Assembly: GCA_005776585.1 (NCBI GenBank)
Contig: SXOX01000152.1
Span: forward strand, 1-53,432
Origin: Pseudomonadota bacterium
GTDB taxonomy: Bacteria > Myxococcota_A > UBA9042 > GCA-2863065
DNA length: 53,432 bases
Direction: 5' to 3'
The translations under genes and the position numbers were made by a program. Below, one piece after another: positions 40,338-51,128 of the stretch. The notes under the pieces are model-generated. The model was not told the origin of the DNA. It saw nothing but the letters and a program-made list of their open reading frames with translations, and searched no databases. Every line of letters starts with the position of its first letter. Within the stretch, counting starts at the first letter, position 1.

Positions 40338-42287
40338 ATGATGTACCGCACGCTGGCCGGAGGCTCCCTTGCCTTGTTGGGGACCCTCACGTGGGTCGCG
40401 GTAGACGACTATCGCGCCGAGTGGAGAGACCATCAGCAGGCCTACGCGGCGCTCACCGGGGCCGCGGTCCCCATCGGGCTCCGTCAGGCGTACGTCCCGG
40501 AGCTGTCTCTCGTCGACCGCTGCCCTTCGTGTCACGTGGGACTCGATGACGCCGCCATGGCGACTGCGAACCAGCCCCTGACCAGCCACCCCGGCACGTG
40601 GCTCGCGACACACCCGCCCGAGCGTTTTGGATGCACGCCCTGCCACGGAGGCGACGGACGCGCGACCACGACGGCCGCCGCGGGGCACCAGCCCGGGCCG
40701 GACGTCATCGAACCGATGGTGTCTCCGGTAGGCCGTGAAGCGCGCTGCGGCGTCTGTCACCGGGAAGTCGAGGTGGCGGGCGCGCCTCACCTCTCCGAGG
40801 GTCGCAAGCTCCTGAAAGACCGGGGGTGTGTCGCCTGCCACGACGTCCCCGGCATTGCGCTCGACCAGCCCTTCGGTGAGGCGCTCGACAGCGTTGGTGA
40901 CAAGAGCAGCCGCGCTTGGCTGGTTCGTTGGTTGACCAACCCCAACCAGGTCCGCCCCGGGACGAAGATGCCTCGCTTCCGGCTGTCGGACGCCGACACC
41001 GACCAGCTTGCGACGTTTCTCCTCTCGCTGAGACGCGAAGGGCTCCCCGCGGCCGATCCGCTGAACGAGGGGGATCCCGAGGCCGGACGGAGTCTGTTTG
41101 GACAGGCCCGGTGCACGACCTGCCACTCTCTGAAGGGCAAAGGGGGCACGCTCGGCCCTGCACTCGACCGCGTTGGCGAAGAAGCCCGCCCTCGCTGGCT
41201 GGTGGCGTGGCTCACAGACCCTCACGCGCTCGACCCCAACACGCTCATGCCGCACTACGGCTTCAGCCGCACCGAGGTGCTCGACCTAGCCGCCTACCTG
41301 CTGGACGAGCTGATCGTCGACGGCACGCCGCTCCCTGCCGAGCCCGAGCCGCTCGGCGCGCCGGAAGCCATCGACGCCGGGCGCGCTCTCTTTCAGGCCC
41401 TCGGCTGCCCGGATTGCCACCGGCTCAAGGAGCTGCGCCGCAAGGGGCAGAGCGCGCCGGCGCTGCGGGGGATCGGGGGCCGTAGCCCCCACCGTCTGGG
41501 CTTTGCCGGCCTCCCCGAGGGAACTCATCGGAGCCTCTCGGACTGGCTCTATCGCAAGATCGAGCGGCCCGAGGCTGGCTTCCCCGAGGCCAAGATGCCA
41601 CAGCACGGGCTCGAGCCACACGCGATCGCCGCCATGACGTTGGCGTTGCTCTCGCTTCGGGACGTGTCCTGGCCTGTCACGGTCATGCCTGTCGCGTCGC
41701 CGACTCCCGCGTTTGAGCCGCGCGGGGCGTTTGGCAGCCTCGTGTCCACCTATCGATGCCTCTCGTGTCATCGCCTTCAGGGCACCGGCGGAGACCTCAG
41801 TCACGCGCCGCTCGATCGTGAGGGCTCGAAGGTCCAACCCGAGTGGCTCGAGGACTTTCTCGTCCAACCGGACACGCTGCGCGTCGCTCAGGCAGAGCGC
41901 ATGCCGAACCTGCGGATGCCGCGGTCGGACGCGAAGGTCCTGAGCGCGATCATCTCCAACGTCTATCGCGACGACCGCATCCCGTTATCCGCGCCGCCCC
42001 CCGTCCTCGGACCGGAGCACGGTCGCAGGCTCTTTGACGCGCTGGGCTGTCGCGCCTGCCACCTCGAGGGCAGCAAAGGCGGCTATGTCGGCCCAGACCT
42101 CGCGCGATCCGGTGTTCGACTGCGCAGCGGTTGGGTATACATGGCCTTGCTCAATCCCAAGCTCCTGCTGCCGGACTTCGTCCACCCGGACTATGCCCTC
42201 GGTGACGGCGACGCGGCGGATCTGACGGCGTTCTTGATGACGCTGCGGCCCGAGCCCAAGCCGAGCCCAGCGGAGGGCCCGCCATGA
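40338..42287 (+). CDS. Eight-haem c-type cytochrome
   Basis: 649 aa from ATG 40338 (a second ATG follows at 40341). An N-terminal anchor is at about 5-20. Eight CXXCH sites begin at Cys62, 99, 137, 164, 259, 357, 474 and 571. The first three are close together as in multihaem proteins. From Cys164 on there are five class-I-like cytochrome c modules of about 85-115 residues. Four have a distal Met candidate (TKMPRF, TLMPHYG, AKMPQHG, ERMPNLRMP); the last has LLLPDFVHPD without Met. It probably replaces cytochrome c1 as electron acceptor of the Rieske protein and stores several electrons. Fusion of a triple-haem head with five cytochrome c domains is unusual. Confidence 0.93.
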   Translation: MMYRTLAGGSLALLGTLTWVAVDDYRAEWRDHQQAYAALTGAAVPIGLRQAYVPELSLVDRCPSCHVGLDDAAMATANQPLTSHPGTWLATHPPERFGCTPCHGGDGRATTTAAAGHQPGPDVIEPMVSPVGREARCGVCHREVEVAGAPHLSEGRKLLKDRGCVACHDVPGIALDQPFGEALDSVGDKSSRAWLVRWLTNPNQVRPGTKMPRFRLSDADTDQLATFLLSLRREGLPAADPLNEGDPEAGRSLFGQARCTTCHSLKGKGGTLGPALDRVGEEARPRWLVAWLTDPHALDPNTLMPHYGFSRTEVLDLAAYLLDELIVDGTPLPAEPEPLGAPEAIDAGRALFQALGCPDCHRLKELRRKGQSAPALRGIGGRSPHRLGFAGLPEGTHRSLSDWLYRKIERPEAGFPEAKMPQHGLEPHAIAAMTLALLSLRDVSWPVTVMPVASPTPAFEPRGAFGSLVSTYRCLSCHRLQGTGGDLSHAPLDREGSKVQPEWLEDFLVQPDTLRVAQAERMPNLRMPRSDAKVLSAIISNVYRDDRIPLSAPPPVLGPEHGRRLFDALGCRACHLEGSKGGYVGPDLARSGVRLRSGWVYMALLNPKLLLPDFVHPDYALGDGDAADLTAFLMTLRPEPKPSPAEGPP

Positions 42288-42692: not shown

Positions 42693-44651
42693 TCAGCTCC
42701 GAGACAGGCGCGCGTCGAGGCGCTCTGCGAAGCGCGTGGCCAAGGCCATGATCGTCACCTGGGGGTTGACGCCGAGCGAGCCGGGCACCGAGGACCCATC
42801 GACGACGTACAACCTGCGCACCTCGTGGGTCTCGTGGTCGCCGTCGACGACGCTGGTCCGTGGATCCGTCCCCATCCGACAGGTGCCCAACGGATGATAG
42901 GCCGACATCTCGAGGTCCCACGGGCGCAGGTGCGCTGTGCGAAAATTCTCCAAGTCGCCGCGACTGCGCAGCCGCTCGTGGCCGAAGACGGGCGTGATGA
43001 CCTCACTGGCGCCGGCGGCGAAGAACACGTCGGACAGCAGGCCGATACCCCGCTGAATGCGCGCCCGATCGCTCTTGGAGAGCGCGTAGGTCACGAGTGG
43101 CGCACCTTTGGGCCCGACGCGGACGCGACCCTCGCTCTTGTCGCTGAGCATGAATCCGAAGACGGCGAGGCGATCGAAGGACTCCATGAGCTCGGTGAAC
43201 TCGGGGCCATACAAGGGGAAGGCCATCGTCGCCATCTCCATGGGGACGAAGGCGCCCTCGAACATGAGGCCCTCGTTGGCAAACTCGTCGATGCAATAGC
43301 CCTGAGGCACGCCGCGCCAGCCCTCGACCCGATGCGGCAAGATGGCGCCAAGCCCCATCGCCGGATGAATCGTGAGCCCCCGACCTACGCGGCCAAAGCG
43401 GTTGCAGAGGCCGTTCTGCAGCAGCAGCAGCGGCGAATGGAGGGTCCCCGCGGCCAGGACGACGTGCTGCGCGCGAACGGTGAGGGTACGCGCCGCGCCG
43501 TCCAGGGTGGGAAGCGCGGCCTCGACGCCAACGGCCACGCCATTCTCGACGAGGACGCGATGGACGCGGGCCTCGGTCACGAGCTGGGCGCCGGCCTTGA
43601 TGGCCAACGGGACGTACGACACGTTCATCGAGCGCTTGGCGTCGGTCGGGCAGCCGAAGCAGCACACGCCTTGCCCGTCGCACTCGGGGGCGTTCCGGTT
43701 CAGGGGATGGTGGTGATACCCGAGCGCCTCGGCGCCCCGTCGAATGACCTCCGCGACGCCGCCGAGCACCTCCCACCGCGCGGGCTCGACGCCAATGGTG
43801 CGCTCGACGCGCTCGAAGTACGGCCGCATGGCCTCGGGCGAGTGCTCCGTCAGCCCCAGCTCGCGCTGCCAGCGTCGCAAGACGGAGTCCGGCGTGCGGA
43901 AGCAGGTCCCGCTGTTGACGGTGGTCGAGCCGCCGACGGTCTTGCCGACCATGAGCGCGATGGGCGTCGGGCCAAAGACCGGCACGATGCCGCCGCCGCG
44001 ATACATCTGCCGGTTGAGCTCCACACGCGAGAGCGAGGTGAAGTCCGCGCGATCGAAGAACCGGCCCTCCTCGAGCAGGACGACCGCGTGGCCCGCAGCG
44101 GCGAGCTCCTTGGCCACGACCGCGCCGCCCGCGCCGGTTCCGATGACGACGACGTCACAGTCGAGGGTTGCTGGCACCGCGCCCGAGCGACCGTCGAGGA
44201 CCTGGGAACGCCAGCGCGACCGCTCCGGCGCCGCCTTGGCCGGTTGATAGACGCAGCCAAGGGCGTTGAAGAGCGCCGGATCATCGTAGTGGGCGACGCG
44301 CAAGGGAGCGGTGGCCAACCGCAAGAGCAGCCGCGTTGGCGGGGCGCGGTGCAGCGCCTGAATGGTCTCGTAGCGTGCCTCGAATGGGAGCGCCGCGAAC
44401 GGCCCGGCGCGGCGAGCGGCAGCGGCCAGATCGACCAGGCCGAGAATGCGCTTGACGCCGGAGACGACGTCCGGACCCAACGACGCGAGGTAGGCCTCGT
44501 AGCGGCGCAGCGTGGACTCGCGGCCACCTCCGGGGAAGAACGCGCCGGCCGGCATGATGGTGTCCGCGAGGGCGCGCGCCGTGTCGCGTTCGCGCGACGT
44601 CAGGACGGCGGCGGGAGGCGTGGCAGACGAGGTCGCGGCCGCGAGGCTCAT
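42693..44651 (-). CDS. GMC-family FAD oxidoreductase with N-terminal gluconate-dehydrogenase-subunit-3-like domain
   Basis: 652 aa from ATG 44651. Residues about 18-135 (LTSRERDTARALADTIMPAG onward) resemble the small subunit 3 of gluconate 2-dehydrogenase, here fused to the flavoprotein. The FAD-binding motif is CDVVVIGTGAGGAVVAKELA near 165. A four-Cys loop follows in APECDGQGVCCFGCPTDAKRS. The catalytic His is in SAYHPLGTCRMG and the second in GVNPQVTIMALA. It oxidises an alcohol, sugar or sterol; the partner is probably a cytochrome c. It is last in a minus-strand series with the selenoprotein gene, 23 bp after an unknown gene. Confidence 0.9.
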   Translation of the reverse strand: MSLAAATSSATPPAAVLTSRERDTARALADTIMPAGAFFPGGGRESTLRRYEAYLASLGPDVVSGVKRILGLVDLAAAARRAGPFAALPFEARYETIQALHRAPPTRLLLRLATAPLRVAHYDDPALFNALGCVYQPAKAAPERSRWRSQVLDGRSGAVPATLDCDVVVIGTGAGGAVVAKELAAAGHAVVLLEEGRFFDRADFTSLSRVELNRQMYRGGGIVPVFGPTPIALMVGKTVGGSTTVNSGTCFRTPDSVLRRWQRELGLTEHSPEAMRPYFERVERTIGVEPARWEVLGGVAEVIRRGAEALGYHHHPLNRNAPECDGQGVCCFGCPTDAKRSMNVSYVPLAIKAGAQLVTEARVHRVLVENGVAVGVEAALPTLDGAARTLTVRAQHVVLAAGTLHSPLLLLQNGLCNRFGRVGRGLTIHPAMGLGAILPHRVEGWRGVPQGYCIDEFANEGLMFEGAFVPMEMATMAFPLYGPEFTELMESFDRLAVFGFMLSDKSEGRVRVGPKGAPLVTYALSKSDRARIQRGIGLLSDVFFAAGASEVITPVFGHERLRSRGDLENFRTAHLRPWDLEMSAYHPLGTCRMGTDPRTSVVDGDHETHEVRRLYVVDGSSVPGSLGVNPQVTIMALATRFAERLDARLSRS

Positions 44652-45180: not shown

Positions 45181-46581
45181 CTAGCGCCCGTACACCGCAA
45201 CGTACTTGAGCAGTTCGGTCCCGTTCCAGATGGCGTGCGCGAGCATCGGCGCAAGCAGCCCACCGGAGCGCTCGTAGAGGCGGGTGAAGACGAGCCCCAA
45301 GACCGTGAGCGGCAACAGCTGCTCGGGTGACAGGTGCACCGCCGCGAAGACGAGGGCCGAGAGCAGCGTCGCCCAACGGAGGCCAATGCGCTCGCGCAGG
45401 ACGCGATAGAGGTAGCCGCGAAACAGGGCCTCCTCGAAGAACGGCGCGACCACGATGGCGGAGAGCAGCAGGAGCACGGCGGCGAGGTCGCTCGGCGGAC
45501 TGGCAAAGAGCAGCAGGGTGGCGCGGCCCTGGGCCGTCGGAGTAAACGGCAAGAGCACCTGGACGAGCTCGGCGATGAGCACGAGCGGCAGCGCCATGGC
45601 GACCGCCAGGAGCGCATGACCCAGGGCGCGACCCGCGCGACCCCCGTAGGGCTCGAGCCCCGGCTCCAGGGCACGCACGACGCCCAGCAGCGACGCGCTG
45701 CTCGGAAGCAGCCCGATACGCCCGACGAGCCAGAGCCCGAACAGGCCAAAGCCCACCTGGTGCAGCACCGAGAACGTGATCCAGCCCGTCTTCGACAGGC
45801 CGGTTCCTCCGAGGAGCGCGTGCATCAGGAAGCCGGAGGTGTTCGCAAACGCGAACCAGGCGGCGATGACGTGAACCGGAAGCCACCAAGTGGTCGAAAA
45901 TGGCAGCGGCGGCGACGCGGCAGGCTCCGCGAGCCGCTTTTTGAGCCACGGCCACAGCAAGAGCAGCAGCATGCCGACGAAGCCGAGCATGACGACCCCG
46001 CCGAGAACGCCCGCGACGGTCTTGAACTCGTCGAGCTCACCGCGCGCAAACGGCACGTCCGCGGGGAGCGGGTGATTGGCGAAGCCGAGCTCGGCGACGA
46101 GGCGTCGCTCCAGCCAGCCTGGCCGCGCGCCGAGCGCACCAGTCACCTCGGGATCGGTCGCAGCTGGCGCCTTGGCGGTGCTTGCGAGCGTAGCGATGAG
46201 CTTGCCCAGCCGACTCCGATCGGCCTCCGGAGGCAGGAGCGCGTTGACGCGCGCGTGGAAGTCGTCGCGGGTGCGGTCTGCGTAGAGCCACACGAGCGCA
46301 GCCAAACGCTCGCGGGTACCGGCCGGAGTCGTCTCCTGGCGGCCCAAGCCCTCGGCGATCTCGACGTGGGTGGACAGCGTTCCAAACCCCTGCGGAGCGA
46401 GCCCGGTGGCCGCCGCCCACTCGCTCGCCTCGGCCAGCCGAGCCTCGGACTCGAGCATCGTGGCCCGGAGCGTACTCTCCTCGGTGGGGTTACCTTCCGC
46501 ACGGACGAACAGCTCGCCCACCGCCAGGACGAGGCAGTAGCCCAGGAGCAGCCAAAACGGCCACGGGGGACGGGGGCTCAC
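45181..46581 (-). CDS. CPBP-family intramembrane metalloprotease
   Basis: 466 aa from GTG 46581, overlapping the TGA of the small lipoprotein gene by 4 bases. After a first membrane segment (WPFWLLLGYCLVLAVGELFV), residues about 35-195 form a soluble helical region, then seven or so hydrophobic segments. Active-site motifs of the CAAX-protease/bacteriocin-processing family are present: EEALFRGYLYRVL (motif 1), FAAVHLSP (motif 2, His) and HAIWNG (motif 3, His and Asn). Family members are glutamate-type membrane proteases. The extra N-terminal soluble domain is not part of the usual family. Substrate unknown; being translationally coupled to the lipoprotein makes that a candidate partner. Confidence 0.88.
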   Translation of the reverse strand: MSPRPPWPFWLLLGYCLVLAVGELFVRAEGNPTEESTLRATMLESEARLAEASEWAAATGLAPQGFGTLSTHVEIAEGLGRQETTPAGTRERLAALVWLYADRTRDDFHARVNALLPPEADRSRLGKLIATLASTAKAPAATDPEVTGALGARPGWLERRLVAELGFANHPLPADVPFARGELDEFKTVAGVLGGVVMLGFVGMLLLLLWPWLKKRLAEPAASPPLPFSTTWWLPVHVIAAWFAFANTSGFLMHALLGGTGLSKTGWITFSVLHQVGFGLFGLWLVGRIGLLPSSASLLGVVRALEPGLEPYGGRAGRALGHALLAVAMALPLVLIAELVQVLLPFTPTAQGRATLLLFASPPSDLAAVLLLLSAIVVAPFFEEALFRGYLYRVLRERIGLRWATLLSALVFAAVHLSPEQLLPLTVLGLVFTRLYERSGGLLAPMLAHAIWNGTELLKYVAVYGR

Positions 46582-46814
46582 TCGCCCAGGTCTCGAATCT
46601 TGCCGGACTGCTCCAGGAGCCGCAGCGTCTTGCTGCACTGCTCGTCGTCGACCGCCTCGGACTGACGCCGCAGCGTCTCGCAGGCGGTGTCCGGATCCTT
46701 GCGATCGGTCATCCGGATGCGATCGCAGCCGATCTCGACGAGCTTCTCGCAGCTCTTCTTCTTGCAGCCGCCGAGCAGGGCAAGTCCCAATACGATGACG
46801 GCAAGGCGACTCAC
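46578..46814 (-). CDS. Small Cys-rich lipoprotein
   Basis: 78 aa from GTG 46814, 10 bp after the selenoprotein stop. The signal peptide SRLAVIVLGLALLGGC has a lipobox, with the lipidated Cys17 followed by KKKS. Four more Cys occur in the mature part (KSCEKLVEIGCDRI, TACETLRRQ, DEQCSKTL), spaced as in two helical hairpins stitched by disulphides. Its position right after two DsbA-like genes makes it a plausible substrate or a partner of them (inference). The longer frame from 46910 is noise. Confidence 0.8.
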   Translation of the reverse strand: MSRLAVIVLGLALLGGCKKKSCEKLVEIGCDRIRMTDRKDPDTACETLRRQSEAVDDEQCSKTLRLLEQSGKIRDLGE

Positions 46815-46824
46815 GGGTTGGGGC

Positions 46825-48798
46825 CTAGTCTGTGATCTCGAGTATCTCGCTGCGCACGAGGTCCACGAAGCCATCGCCCGTCTGCGGCGCGTTCTTGATC
46901 TTGCGGCCATTCAAGAACATGGTCGGCGTGCCGCTCACGCCCGCTCGCTCCGCCTCTTGCTTGTCGCGCGCCAGGATCTTGTCGACCGAGGGATCCTTCA
47001 TGTCGGTCTGCCATTTGGCCAGGTCGAGCCCGGCTTGCTTGGCGTACTCCTCCAGCTTGGCTGCGCCGATCTCCTTCTGGTTCTTGAAGACGAGATCGTG
47101 GAACTCCCAGAACTTGCCCTGCTTCATGGCCGCCACGGCTGCGACTGCCGCCGGCTTGGCATCCTTGTGGAAGTCGAGCGGATAGTGCTTGAACACGACC
47201 TTGAGCTGCCCATTGGCCTTCTTGACTGCCTCGTGAACCGGGTCGACGACCCGGGAGCAGTAGGGTCACTGAAACTCCGAGAAGATGACGAGGGTCGCGA
47301 TCGCCTTGTTGGGCCCGAACACCGGTGAGTCGTCGAGCGCGAACTTGTTGACCGGGCCCTCCAAGCCCGAGGACTTGCGCGCGGCCTTCTTGGCGTCGGC
47401 GATGAGCTTGGCGTAGTAGTCGTCCCGGGTCGTGCCGCCCTTGGCGATGGCGGCCTCGGCCTTCTTCTTCTCGTCCTCGATGACCGCCTTGAACTCCTCG
47501 AAGGGCAGCGCGCCCGAAAGGTAGCGGCCATTGACGAAGAACCCAGGCGTTCCGGCCGAGCCATTCTTCTCGCAGGCCGAGTCCTGGCGCTTCACGAGCG
47601 CCTCGACCTCCTTGCTGGCCAGGTCGGCCTTCCACTTGGCGACGTCGAGCCCGACCTCCTTGGCGTAGCCTTCGAGGTCTGCGTCCTCGAGCTTCTGCTG
47701 GTTGGCGAACATCTTGTCGTGGAACTCCCAAAACTTACCTTGCTTGTGGGCCGCGATGGACGCCTTGGCGGTCGGCATGGCGCGGTTGTGAAACGAGAGC
47801 GGCCGGTTCTTGAACACGACCCGCACATCCTTGGGCCAGGTCTCCTCGATCTGCTTGAAGGTCGGACCGACCTTGGAGCAGAACGGTCACTGAAAGTCCG
47901 AGCATTCGGCGATGGTCACCAATGCGTCCTTGGGCCCCTTGCTGGGCTCGTCGTCTGCGACCTCGATGGGGTGAACGGACTCGTCCTTCTTGTCCCCCTT
48001 GGACGCCAGCGCGGGCGCAGACTTACGCTCGACCGCGAACTTGACGTAGTTCTCGCCCTCCTTGGTCGCCCGCATGCGCTTACCGAGCGCGACCGCGGGG
48101 CTCGCCCCGTCCTTGGTCAGCTTCTCGATCTCGGCCAGCTCCGCCTCGACGGCCGCCTCGAAGTCCTTCTGCTCACGGCCGCCCTCGAGCTTGCGGCCGT
48201 TGATGAACAGCGACGGCGTCCCGGTCACGCCGAGCGCGCCACCCGCCTTGGCGTCGTCATCGACCTGCTTGATGACCGCCGGATCCTTTTGGTCGGCCTT
48301 GAACTTTTCGACGTCGAGGCCAATCTCCTTGGCCCACTCCTCGAGCTTGGCCGGCCCCTGGTCGGACATGTTCGCGTAGAGCTTGTTGGCCATCTCGAAG
48401 AACTTGCCCTGGCGATGCGCCGCCATGGCGGCGACCGCGCTCCCCTTGGCGAACTTGTGAAAGTCCAGCGGGTAGTTGTGGTACTCGATGCGGACCTTGT
48501 CGCCGTACTTCTTGACCAGCTCATGTAAGGTCGGACCGACCTTGCCGCAGAAGGGTCACTGAAAGTCCGTCCACTTGGCGATGACGACCGAGGCGTCCTT
48601 GCCACCCTCGAACGGGATGTCCGCCGGCATCACGACCGCGAGGGCGTCGTCTTTGCCCGCGTCACCGCGCTTGCCGAGGAAGGCCCAGGCGGCGATCCCG
48701 GCAGCAATGACGGCGATCGCGCCAATGACGATGAACTCTTTCTTGATGCCACCCAGGCCGCCTGAACCGGTGCCCTTGGCTCTTCTGACTTTCGCCAT
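46825..48798 (-). CDS. Triple-domain DsbA-like selenoprotein with three in-frame UGA (Sec) codons
   Basis: One frame of 658 codons from ATG 48798 (GGAAGGA 6 bases upstream) to TAG 46825, broken only by TGA at 48556-48558, 47887-47889 and 47266-47268. Read as selenocysteine they give 657 aa with U81, U304 and U511, each in [DE]FQ-U-P-[FY]-C with a resolving Cys (84, 307, 514). Residues 19-42 are a membrane anchor. Each thioredoxin/DsbA-like domain has a helical insert (KFFEMANKLYANM; KFWEFHDKMFANQ; KFWEFHDLVFKNQ) and a cis-Pro loop (GTP at P195, P418, P625, each followed by the FxNGR type). Hairpins of the SECIS kind follow each UGA. Conservation on both sides of every UGA excludes pseudogene decay. 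Likely role: periplasmic thiol-disulphide or selenium-based redox catalysis, with a Cys paralogue 26 bp upstream. Automatic annotation would split or truncate it. Confidence 0.93.
47238..47254 (-). promoter_or_regulatory. Candidate bacterial SECIS hairpin after third UGA (U511)
   Basis: Read on the minus strand, a perfect 7-bp stem CCGGGTC/GACCCGG with loop GTC begins 12 bases after the TGA at 47266-47268. The sequence differs from that at the other two sites, but the stem is at the same place and a G is again at +19, the position of the loop G. It lies inside the coding region (SRVVDPV codons). Confidence 0.6.
47858..47874 (-). promoter_or_regulatory. Candidate bacterial SECIS hairpin after second UGA (U304)
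   Basis: Minus-strand sequence AAGGTCGGTCCGACCTT, spanning +13 to +29 after the TGA at 47887-47889. A 6-bp stem AAGGTC/GACCTT carries a GGTCC loop with the GGU expected of bacterial SECIS apical loops. It is identical over 17 bases to the first site although the flanking codons differ. Confidence 0.75.
48527..48543 (-). promoter_or_regulatory. Candidate bacterial SECIS hairpin after first UGA (U81)
   Basis: Minus-strand sequence AAGGTCGGTCCGACCTT at +13 to +29 after the TGA at 48556-48558. The GGU of the loop starts 19 bases after the UGA, the same spacing I know for the E. coli fdhF SECIS, which SelB binds to bring in selenocysteinyl-tRNA. Confidence 0.75.
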
Positions 48799-48824
48799 GC
48801 GTGTTCCTTCCTTGCTGACGCTCT

Positions 48825-49754
48825 CTAGAACTCGGGAACGGCCTCGTCGTCTTGACCATGGCTCCCGTGCGGCTCGCTCATCGGGACCTCCATCGGACGC
48901 CGGCCCGTGCCGCCACGACGGAGGTCGATGACCAGATCGCGCACGTCGCCGTCGATGAAATACTTGGAGAACGCGATACCGGCCGGGTGGTTCTTGGACG
49001 CTACGATGCGTCGCGCCTGCCGCACGTCCACGCCGGGCCGAACGAGCTGCTTGACCTTGGCGGCCTCTTCGCGCACGAGGCGCCGGACGGCGTCAGCGGA
49101 TGCGTCCGCCGGCAGGGACACGCCGTTGACCAGAATGGTCGGCGTGGCGCGCACCTCGACCGCTTCCGCGGCGGCCTTGTCCTTGCGGACATAGGCCAGC
49201 AGGGCGGGGTCCTTGAGGTCGGCCTCGAACTGCTTCGCGTCCAGGCCCGACGTCTTGGCGATGGCGAGGTAGCCCACCGTATCCAACGGGGCCCCCTGAT
49301 GGAGATAGAGGCGATCCACGTACTCCTCGAAGCGGCCCTGACGATTGGCAGCCATCGCAGCGACGGCGTGCGGCTCGCTCGTGGGCGTCAAGAAGGGGAA
49401 GAGCTTGACCTCGAGGCGCACAGTGTCGCCGAACTCCGTGACGAGGCGCTTCCAGTAGCCATTGCGGAGCGCGCAGAAGCGGCAGTTGATGTCGATGACC
49501 TCGTGGATGACGACGGGCGCATCCAGCGGGCCGACGCCGGGCGCAGGCTCGGTGTAGCCGGGACCGGCTACCGGGCGTGACGTGGACCACTTGGCCTCCT
49601 CGGGCCGGGTCATGAAGCCAAAGGCGTAGCCGGCGACTGACACCGCCAAGACGAGCGGCACAATCGTGCGCGCCATGTGCGTGGGAGCAGCGGGCGCCGC
49701 GTGCGAGTGCGGGTCCTGCCCGTGTTGGTCGTGGTCGTCGTGTGCGTGGCCCAT
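48825..49754 (-). CDS. Membrane-anchored DsbA-like thioredoxin-fold protein (Cys form)
   Basis: 309 aa from ATG 49754. The N-terminus is His/Asp-rich and probably metal-binding (MGHAHDDHDQHGQDPHSH), followed by one membrane segment at about 30-48. The thioredoxin/DsbA-like domain has active site Cys91-Arg-Phe-Cys94 (VIDINCRFCALRNGYW), the helical insert GRFEEYVDRLYLHQGAP and the cis-Pro loop VRATPTILVNG. It is a paralogue of the triple selenoprotein encoded 26 bp downstream, but with Cys instead of Sec. A C-terminal extension (VRDLVIDLRRGG) ends in another His-containing tail. First gene of the operon; the start is about 84 bp from the divergent Kelch-like lipoprotein gene. Reductase, oxidase or isomerase role unknown. 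Confidence 0.9.
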   Translation of the reverse strand: MGHAHDDHDQHGQDPHSHAAPAAPTHMARTIVPLVLAVSVAGYAFGFMTRPEEAKWSTSRPVAGPGYTEPAPGVGPLDAPVVIHEVIDINCRFCALRNGYWKRLVTEFGDTVRLEVKLFPFLTPTSEPHAVAAMAANRQGRFEEYVDRLYLHQGAPLDTVGYLAIAKTSGLDAKQFEADLKDPALLAYVRKDKAAAEAVEVRATPTILVNGVSLPADASADAVRRLVREEAAKVKQLVRPGVDVRQARRIVASKNHPAGIAFSKYFIDGDVRDLVIDLRRGGTGRRPMEVPMSEPHGSHGQDDEAVPEF

Positions 49755-49838
49755 GCGTCACCCTGCCCTGCGGATCCGGCGTGCGGCGCTCACCACGGTG
49801 GTGGGCAGCCCGCTTGCGGGCGCGTACTATAGCCGTCG

Positions 49839-51128
49839 ATGATTCGGTCGTCGAGCCACCTGTTACTGCTGCTCTCTGGGCTCGTCCTCGCGGCTGCGTG
49901 CGACCACGAGGCCGTGCTCCGGCTGCGCCTCGACGTCCGGGCGCCTCCGGGCCCCGATCCGTATGCGGGGGCGGTCACGGCGCGCATCGCGGTCGATGGT
50001 GTCGTCATCGCGTCGGGGCCGTACTCGGGCAGCGGCTCGCTCGCGGGACTGGAGCTCTCAGCACCGTCCATCGAAGGTGGCGCGCGGGTCGCGCTCGAGC
50101 TGCTGGACGCGACCGGCGCGGTTGTCTCACGCGGCTCGGCGCGCATGAGAGACGACGAGGAGCCCACGCGCTTGATGCTTCGCCGCGCGGGCGCGTTCTC
50201 AGCGACCCTGGGTCCGCTCGGCAGTACCCGCGTCGCGGCGCGCACGGCCCTCGCCAGCGACGCCGTGTGGCTCGTCGGCGGGGACGCGCACGCGTTCTCG
50301 ACCGCGGTCGATCGCATCGACGGCGACACGACGCTCATCGAGCGCAAGCCAGCCTTGGTCACGCCGCGCGTGGCGCCGGTGGCCGTCTTTGCGCCGGAGG
50401 GGTCCCTGGTCGTCCTCGGCGGCGGTGCGGCGGGAGCCGAAGTGCTCGCGCCGGAGGCCGAGGCGTTCACGACGCACGCGGGTGTTCCGCACCTCGGGTC
50501 GTGGGCGGGAGTCGTGGCGAGCGGCGCAGGGACCTGGACTGTGGCCGGCGGCGGGACGGCCGACGTGTTCGCGCTCCGCTGGGCCGAGGGCGCGCCGAAC
50601 GTCACCGCGATGCCCCCGCTGCGCACGTCCCGCGGGCGCGTCACGCTCCTCCGGCTGGGCGAGCGGACGCTTGCGGTTGGAGGCTCACCGACCTCGCTCG
50701 CGGAGTGGGTGGACAACTCCTCGCCACCGCTCACGGAGCCCGTAGTGATCCCCGCGGCGGTCTCAGCCGACCGGCTAGACACCACGCACGCCGTCGTCGT
50801 CGCGCTCGCCGAGCGGACGGTGATGGTGCTCGACGCCAAGGGGGGCCTCACCGTCGCCGGGGCACTGGCTCGCGGTCGCGCCTCGGGTGCGGCGCTCACG
50901 CTGGAGAGCGGCCTCCTCCTGGTCATCGGGGGCGAAGGCGATGCGGCGGGGTCGGCCGAGCGCTGGCGGTGGGCGGACGGCCAGCTCACCTTCGAGGACG
51001 AGATCGCGCTCTTCGGGAAGCACAAGAGCGCCGTCGTCGCGCGATTGCCGTCAGGAGGCGCGCTCGTCGCCGGCGGCACGGACGCGCTGGGGGTCTACGC
51101 GCCCATCGGCGCCGTCTACGAGCCGTAG
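49839..51128 (+). CDS. Lipoprotein with Kelch-like beta-propeller
   Basis: 429 aa from ATG 49839. The signal peptide IRSSSHLLLLLSGLVLAAAC ends in a lipobox Cys. Residues about 25-125 form a beta-sandwich-like domain (TARIAVDGVVIASGPY; ARVALELLDATGAVVSRG). Residues 130-425 contain Kelch-type blades: VWLVGGDAHAFSTAVDRID, LVVLGGGAAGAEVLAPE, RTLAVGGSPTSLAEW, LLLVIGGEGDAAGSAERW and ALVAGGTDALGVY, about six in all. Such lipoproteins are common in myxobacteria; function unknown. The glycosylase gene begins one base after its stop. Confidence 0.82.
   Translation: MIRSSSHLLLLLSGLVLAAACDHEAVLRLRLDVRAPPGPDPYAGAVTARIAVDGVVIASGPYSGSGSLAGLELSAPSIEGGARVALELLDATGAVVSRGSARMRDDEEPTRLMLRRAGAFSATLGPLGSTRVAARTALASDAVWLVGGDAHAFSTAVDRIDGDTTLIERKPALVTPRVAPVAVFAPEGSLVVLGGGAAGAEVLAPEAEAFTTHAGVPHLGSWAGVVASGAGTWTVAGGGTADVFALRWAEGAPNVTAMPPLRTSRGRVTLLRLGERTLAVGGSPTSLAEWVDNSSPPLTEPVVIPAAVSADRLDTTHAVVVALAERTVMVLDAKGGLTVAGALARGRASGAALTLESGLLLVIGGEGDAAGSAERWRWADGQLTFEDEIALFGKHKSAVVARLPSGGALVAGGTDALGVYAPIGAVYEP

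Follow-up and report, generated by a model that had tools for sequence, protein, structure and literature searches.

The window analysed here is the whole of contig SXOX01000152.1 (53,432 nucleotides; assembly GCA_005776585.1, Pseudomonadota bacterium, Myxococcota_A in the GTDB lineage), designated C139 in a draft genome of 7.0 Mb and 334 contigs that is 86.7% complete. On its minus strand, from 48798 to 46825, it contains a candidate gene for a selenoprotein of three DsbA-like domains. With TGA read as selenocysteine (Sec, U) the gene is one ATG-to-TAG frame of 657 residues, with neither TAA nor TAG before the terminal codon, and U81, U304 and U511 lie in the active-site motifs FQUPFC, FQUPFC and FQUPYC of domains 1, 2 and 3 (coordinates in Table 1). 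The first-pass annotation had joined the protein from minus-strand open reading frames (ORFs) of one frame separated only by TGA, and had placed these codons at the first active-site Cys, in F-Q-TGA-P-[FY]-C, three times; retranslation agrees with it on residues, positions and TAG end. The later three ORFs of the mechanical list start at internal codons, and therefore the "four ORFs" are the translation table 11 reading of a single frame. Each domain also keeps, as had been proposed, the resolving (second) Cys and the G-T-P (cis-Pro) loop (residues 193-195, 416-418 and 623-625), which is invariant across an alignment of 19 sequences. Pfam models PF13462 and PF01323 each match the protein in three stretches, and a DsbA-like fold of the three domains is supported by predicted structure and PDB matches; a membrane anchor is predicted as well. 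The first Cys of the protein is residue 84, no Cys or Sec being found before residue 81.

The placement of the TGA codons is hard to reconcile with chance. When up to two mismatches were allowed, TTYCARTGACCNTWYTGY was found three times in the window, all exact, against an expectation of 0.02 in shuffled sequences, none of 100 reaching three. By hand arithmetic, three random stops in 657 codons would fall on exactly the three catalytic positions about 1 in 4.7e7 times, in line with the earlier argument that chance stops would not hit that position repeatedly. The third-position G+C of the four pieces between TGA codons is 82.5, 91.0, 92.7 and 87.7%, against 34.9-48.8% at second positions; hence every piece codes in this frame. 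The genome also carries selA (552.7 bits), selB (291.5), tRNA-Sec (76.1) and selD (413.7), all above curated cut-offs, so that the set selA, selB, selC and selD, which the annotation had proposed to look for, is complete. The selD gene (contig C3, L022/L024) contains one TGA in its GG-TGA-GC-K loop and is itself a selenoprotein gene. TGA serves as an ordinary stop too, the lipoprotein gene downstream of the triple gene ending with it at 46580-46578.

Four paralogues were located in the same genome. The one on contig C11 (L010:741-2840) is a second DsbA protein of three domains, each of them with TGA at its site (U130, U352, U554), those on contigs C180 and C274 have three domains with Cys at all three sites, and that on contig C259 has two domains. 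The order-level comparison comprised two other genomes, G001 and G002, both of the same family (sister genera); the syntenic orthologue of the window gene is Sec-Sec-Cys in G001 and Cys-Cys-Cys in G002, and the latter genome still has selA. Thus paralogues and orthologues carry Cys at the TGA positions, where unrelated codons would have spoken against the proposal. As to the context of the TGA codons, all six Sec sites of the window genome (window gene and C11) read TTT-CAG-TGA; the Phe codons of the five genes are TTC 140 times and TTT 24 times, and the six Cys sites with Phe at that place read TTC. TTT before TGA as a general feature was rejected: loci through L120 have it at 15 of 32 Sec sites and at 22 of 85 Cys sites (P 0.044), whereas in L121-L180 the counts are 26 of 68 and 3 of 9 (P 1.0).

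A sequence able to form a hairpin follows each TGA. A stem of 7 bp with a three-base loop begins 14-15 bases past the T of each window TGA, the loop starting with G, 18-19 nt after the UGA. The best local folds at the three sites have -12.7, -20.8 and -18.0 kcal/mol, and the bare first hairpin -8.2. All three fall within the limits of the bacterial selenocysteine insertion sequence (bSECIS) given in the review PMC13188914. Because a general bSECIS scan separated Sec and Cys sites poorly, a hairpin at a fixed place was used instead for comparing sites, and phylum-scan loci L091, L095, L097 and L114, which are not DsbA around the site, were excluded from the site counts (the any-place bSECIS scan included two of them).

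In loci found without the hairpin in the search, the full seven pairs are present at 20 of the 23 Sec VGPT sites and at none of the 9 Cys ones, and the Gly codon at VGP sites is GGT in 27 of 27 Sec against 5 of 14 Cys cases. Pairing was evaluated on these same loci and with no picking of sites. At the 21 distinct Sec VGPT sites 95.8% of cells were paired, against 90.2 after shuffling, and 10 changes were two-sided, against 3.1, with none of 500 shuffles as high by either measure; all 31 distinct Sec sites gave 79.0% (shuffled 72.6) and 15 two-sided changes (shuffled 6.9), again with 0 of 500. No pairing signal was obtained at Cys sites, whether the 9 of VGPT type (66.7% against 65.8 shuffled) or all 103 (46.5% against 48.4). 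An earlier count on 37 sites gave 17 two-sided changes (shuffled 5.1) with 96.3% of cells paired; it is biased upward because these sites had been picked from among the 55 distinct sites, out of 65, in which six or more of the seven pairs were already formed. Within the genome, the peptide PFCSKVGPTLKQI is common to domain 1 of C11 (Sec) and of C180 (Cys), and the codons that close the hairpin occur only in the Sec gene; the seven Cys sites that C180, C274 and C259 have between them all lack the hairpin. C11 domain 3 has a hairpin of different sequence, AGGGTG-GGTC-CACCCT (P 0.0002 under the synonymous null). An Rfam scan of 46000..50000 found no bacterial SECIS family, its sole match, RF03537 at 14.9 bits (gathering score 38.3; E 9.2), being dismissed as chance. 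The hairpins are SECIS-like and specific to Sec as against Cys sites, and SelB would bind to them. With TGA at each catalytic Cys position and hairpin-forming sequence after each, a single protein with three Sec active sites is the likely product.

Table 1. Features of the triple DsbA-like gene and of its neighbours in the window
Feature	Position	Strand	Basis
Triple DsbA-like candidate selenoprotein gene, 657 residues, three in-frame TGA, stop TAG	46825..48798	-	translation; PF13462/PF01323
Purine-rich, ribosome-binding-like AAGGAAGGAA, five bases 5' of ATG (putative)	48804..48813	-	read from sequence
Single N-terminal hydrophobic helix, codons 26-42, probable membrane anchor	48673..48723	-	predicted helix H26-42, low pLDDT
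DsbA-like domain 1, codons 55-226	48121..48636	-	Pfam; predicted structure
TGA codon 81 in FQ-TGA-PFC, domain 1	48556..48558	-	translation
Predicted SECIS hairpin 1, AAGGTCG-GTC-CGACCTT	48527..48543	-	hairpin scan/folding
DsbA-like domain 2, codons 271-455	47434..47988	-	Pfam; predicted structure
TGA codon 304 in FQ-TGA-PFC, domain 2	47887..47889	-	translation
Predicted SECIS hairpin 2, AAGGTCG-GTC-CGACCTT	47858..47874	-	hairpin scan/folding
DsbA-like domain 3, codons 480-655	46834..47361	-	Pfam; predicted structure
TGA codon 511 in FQ-TGA-PYC, domain 3	47266..47268	-	translation
Predicted SECIS hairpin 3, CCGGGTC-GTC-GACCCGG	47238..47254	-	hairpin scan/folding
Single-domain DsbA-like gene, upstream, 309 aa, CRFC site, His-rich N-terminus	48825..49754	-	PF13462
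Small putative lipoprotein, downstream, lipobox Cys and four further Cys, TGA stop	46578..46814	-	ORF reading
CPBP-type (Rce1-like) intramembrane protease ORF, next downstream	45181..46638	-	PF02517

Studies on the distribution of the family were carried out at several levels. Of the 52 genomes of the class, 39 match query P0001 at E <=1e-60, TGA being present in only four of those rows (C139, C11, G001:C173 and G021:C368), and selA is found in 40 of the 52. In the phylum, F-[QE]-TGA-P-[FY]-C occurs in 24 of 377 genomes, at 37 sites (4 in the backwards control), and the window genome has the most, six. The reading of architectures by open frame and motif, from which G068:C72 was left out, gave two-domain, two-Sec relatives (G003:C213, G006:C452, G006:C647), single-domain Sec proteins, and three-domain proteins with Sec in the first domain only: two in G148, and G021:C248, G006:C871 and G021:C368, the third domain of the last being without CxxC by the motif used. 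In genome_contigs, a collection of 84,980 species genomes, a DNA scan for the active site and the 5' part of the hairpin returned 60 stretches; most have Myxococcales, Myxococcota, Deltaproteobacteria or Acidobacteria in their titles, and one comes from the isolate Paraliomyxa miuraensis. One domain is seen in 47 of the 60 frames, several of which run to the end of the stretch. Seven have two domains with two Sec (L121, L124, L125, L129, L148, L151, L162), with L124, L125 and L151 being the G006 and G003 genes again. Four have three domains with one Sec: L126 (C,C,U, 5' end cut) and L155, L164 and L177, which are again the G148 and G021 genes. In L152 the G001 gene recurs, truncated after U,U, and the frame of L172, also truncated, shows U,C. 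No other three-Sec gene was found in the 377 phylum genomes or the 60 stretches with this fixed motif, which variant sites escape, and none of 37 viral-contig stretches matching a pattern encodes a relative. One Baikal Myxococcales metagenome-assembled genome (MAG) has both the C,C,U frame L126 (SHYY01000027.1) and the two-Sec double DsbA gene L121 (SHYY01000058.1); hence the position of Sec varies between domains within one genome too. The protein search gave 5032 matches at E <=0.001 among 7997 scored candidates, and many of the best 120 of the 5032 (P0006-P0125) are long DsbA-type proteins of 547-1163 aa. Judged by length, the long proteins among the matches listed probably hold three to five tandem domains. 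All-Cys tandem DsbA proteins are common in the class.

Phylogenetic analysis indicated how the Sec state is distributed over these proteins. In a whole-protein tree of 13 sequences the window protein and its two syntenic orthologues form one clade (100/100), and every domain of the window protein clusters with its counterpart in these orthologues, Sec or Cys (support 100, 81 and 99). The C11 protein stands apart from this clade, with the all-Cys C180 (86/92, not fully supported) and near four all-Cys proteins of the sister genera; because it is outside the clade of the window gene, the three-Sec state is present in two separate lineages of the family. On a tree of 183 domains, many forks of which are without resolution, the Sec/Cys label needs 22 changes, at least 10 of them forced by well-supported branches. 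Copying of a cassette between domains was considered and left as unproven: the six Sec sites peak at 73-82% identity against 34-60% elsewhere, but Cys sites peak at up to 80%. A tentative proposal, to which we give somewhat less than even weight, is that selenium content is an evolvable dial turned domain by domain (CCC, UCC, CCU, UUC, UUU), which would have reached two full three-Sec lineages here, perhaps through a copied TGA-plus-hairpin stretch, and would have yielded a disulfide machine that has three heads, depends on selenium and is without a described counterpart.

The surroundings of the gene are partly conserved. In the two sister genera, too, a DsbA-like gene lies at this upstream place (matches G001:C173:6170-6625 and G002:C158:3893-4330). 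The active sites of this upstream gene differ, CRFC in the window, CGAC in L058:2070-3044 and CIYC in L059:2515-3321, and in two of the three genomes a His-rich N-terminus, suggestive of metal binding, stands ahead of its membrane helix. On the other side, a similar small lipoprotein gene adjoins the triple gene in the three genera (L058:5039-5272, L059:5454-5723); it has no Pfam match, and the four-Cys lipoprotein is a possible client or partner of the triple protein. Of the sister genera, G002 has the CPBP-type protease ORF as well; the G001 stretch did not show it. A CxxCH-rich cytochrome-like protein and a GMC oxidoreductase (window 40338-42287 and 42693-44651) are encoded a few kb beyond the DsbA genes on the downstream side, a c-type cytochrome being one conceivable thiol client.

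The locus very probably harbours one gene, each of whose TGA codons is likely read as Sec and whose 657-residue product would be an anchored, extracytoplasmic thiol-disulfide exchange enzyme of three DsbA domains, with Sec attacking in every U-P-[FY]-C; a membrane-anchored location outside the cytoplasm is the most likely one. In a DsbA domain with UxxC the selenol would be the nucleophile and would form a U-C selenenylsulfide, following the chemistry of Sec oxidoreductases. SelB and tRNA-Sec would decode each TGA by means of that codon's own hairpin, and each domain would then cycle between the selenol/thiol form and the U-C selenenylsulfide. No DsbB was found in the window genome, at its 86.7% completeness. 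The genome contains one DsbD_TM protein and two VKOR matches, of which that on C25 is a VKOR-DsbA fusion and that on C98 is accompanied by a DsbA match in an equally long frame; both oxidising and reducing supplies may therefore exist. The VKOR-DsbA fusion protein would be the probable oxidant that renews the oxidised form. The neighbouring four-cysteine lipoprotein may be a client, and the net role could be oxidation, reduction or shuffling of disulfides.

Several explanations compete with this scenario. A decaying pseudogene or a sequencing error, with each TGA as a true stop or a miscall in what was once a triple-cysteine protein, would agree with three stops under table 11 and with the draft state of the genome. 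The stops, however, fall only on the three catalytic Cys positions of 657 codons, the same signature recurs three times in C11 and twice in the G001 orthologue, and all pieces keep full coding bias together with linked hairpins; a pattern conserved across genes and genomes speaks strongly against decay or error, which we consider extremely improbable. Reading of TGA as a standard amino acid, by a code change to Trp or by near-cognate Cys/Trp readthrough, is also very improbable. Readthrough with Cys would give an active enzyme, as homologues have Cys at the position, but TGA terminates the neighbouring lipoprotein gene, the full Sec machinery is present, and the hairpins accompany TGA and not Cys codons. 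Animal selenoprotein P is a selenium store or carrier, and the occurrence of several Sec in one probably exported protein, with two such genes in the genome, would suit a similar role here in place of catalysis. This is improbable as the main function, because every Sec is in a complete UxxC site with resolving Cys and cis-Pro loop, and relatives use Cys there, which stores no selenium. Compatible with catalysis by the three-Sec enzyme, and the most serious of these options although still doubtful, is a selenium-controlled switch in which a short, anchor-only product would be made without selenium and the full enzyme with it, the all-Cys C180 and C274 covering selenium-poor times. Sec and Cys versions do coexist in one genome, and truncation would remove all catalysis because the first TGA precedes the rest of domain 1, but regulation is not indicated by any result of this sequence analysis.

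Other observations weigh against three Sec-decoded, catalytic domains as described. The loose, any-place bSECIS scan separates poorly in G+C-rich DNA, where 85 of 104 Cys sites offer a hairpin. The fixed-place hairpin is missing at 8 of 33 Sec sites and present at 7 of 104 Cys sites, and its three registers were chosen after the Sec sites had been seen. Taken one by one, the window hairpins are no more than mildly unlikely under synonymous recoding (P 0.016, 0.20 and 0.067 for domains 1, 2 and 3), those of domains 2 and 3 falling short of significance; in folding against shuffles domain 2 stands out (z -4.0) but domains 1 (z -0.24) and 3 (z -1.06) do not, and the loop of domain 3 is without the GGUC found in the others. 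In the predicted structure the placement of the three domains relative to each other is uncertain (predicted template modelling score, pTM, 0.50), and the anchor helix 26-42, the sole predicted N-terminal helix, has a low predicted local distance difference test score (pLDDT). Oxidant, client and direction of transfer are deduced from the gene content of the incomplete genome alone, and Sec incorporation is predicted from gene sequence.

Single DsbA-like selenoproteins are known, as the annotation had said. Form 1 (PF01323, UxxC) has one Sec in Table 1 of PMC13188914, and DsbA-like selenoproteins are also described in PMC1794560 and PMC2398784. Like form 1, the window protein has the DsbA fold with Sec for the first Cys of CxxC, but its chain holds three such domains, and a separate Sec and SECIS-like hairpin belong to each. 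Its best NCBIfam match is NF041057 (203.5 bits against a cut-off of 190, summed over three stretches), the Rcas_1661 thioredoxin-like (seleno)lipoprotein, which is the DsbG-like row of that table; the model has 247 positions and one Sec listed there, whereas the window protein matches in three stretches and, because it has no lipobox Cys, it was not filed under this family. The same 2026 review puts the number of prokaryotic selenoprotein families or subfamilies at 119, by far the most of them having a single Sec and a small minority 2-3. The arsenite methyltransferase/AhpD selenoprotein NF041537, in that table, shares three Sec per bacterial protein, but it is by name a fusion of different enzymes and not one repeated domain. 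The table has no entry with Sec in repeated DsbA domains. Neither a DsbA with three Sec nor a tandem DsbA with Sec is among the titles and abstract openings listed from the largely open-access literature, and the literature search, on the text it covers, turned up no papers on long tandem DsbA-type proteins.

The architecture had been presented as undescribed, and in the searches made here three Sec in three tandem DsbA domains were not found elsewhere; the tandem arrangement as such is less singular, with all-Cys forms common and two-Sec tandem relatives in public MAGs. P0017 (Myxococcota bacterium), P0025 and P0029, which are 55, 62 and 58% identical to paralogue C11, are likewise built of three domains, but have CPFC or CPYC in every domain and no TGA. 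Standard annotation splits such multi-TGA genes into pieces. One chain here would need three separate recoding events, and the amount of it that is made should tell how efficiently bacteria can decode Sec. Moreover, CCC, UCC, CCU, UUC and UUU form a natural series, partly in one syntenic gene, in which what Sec buys over Cys is testable per domain. Proteus ScsC trimerises, bringing three active sites together. The window protein would have its three sites in one chain, while ScsC, BdbD and the Silicibacter thioredoxin-like oxidoreductase 3gyk, all with solved structures, have one catalytic domain per chain, with Cys. Next to the single-Sec DsbA and the all-Cys tandem DsbA already known, three Sec in three tandem DsbA domains appears, from the sequences compared, to be new.
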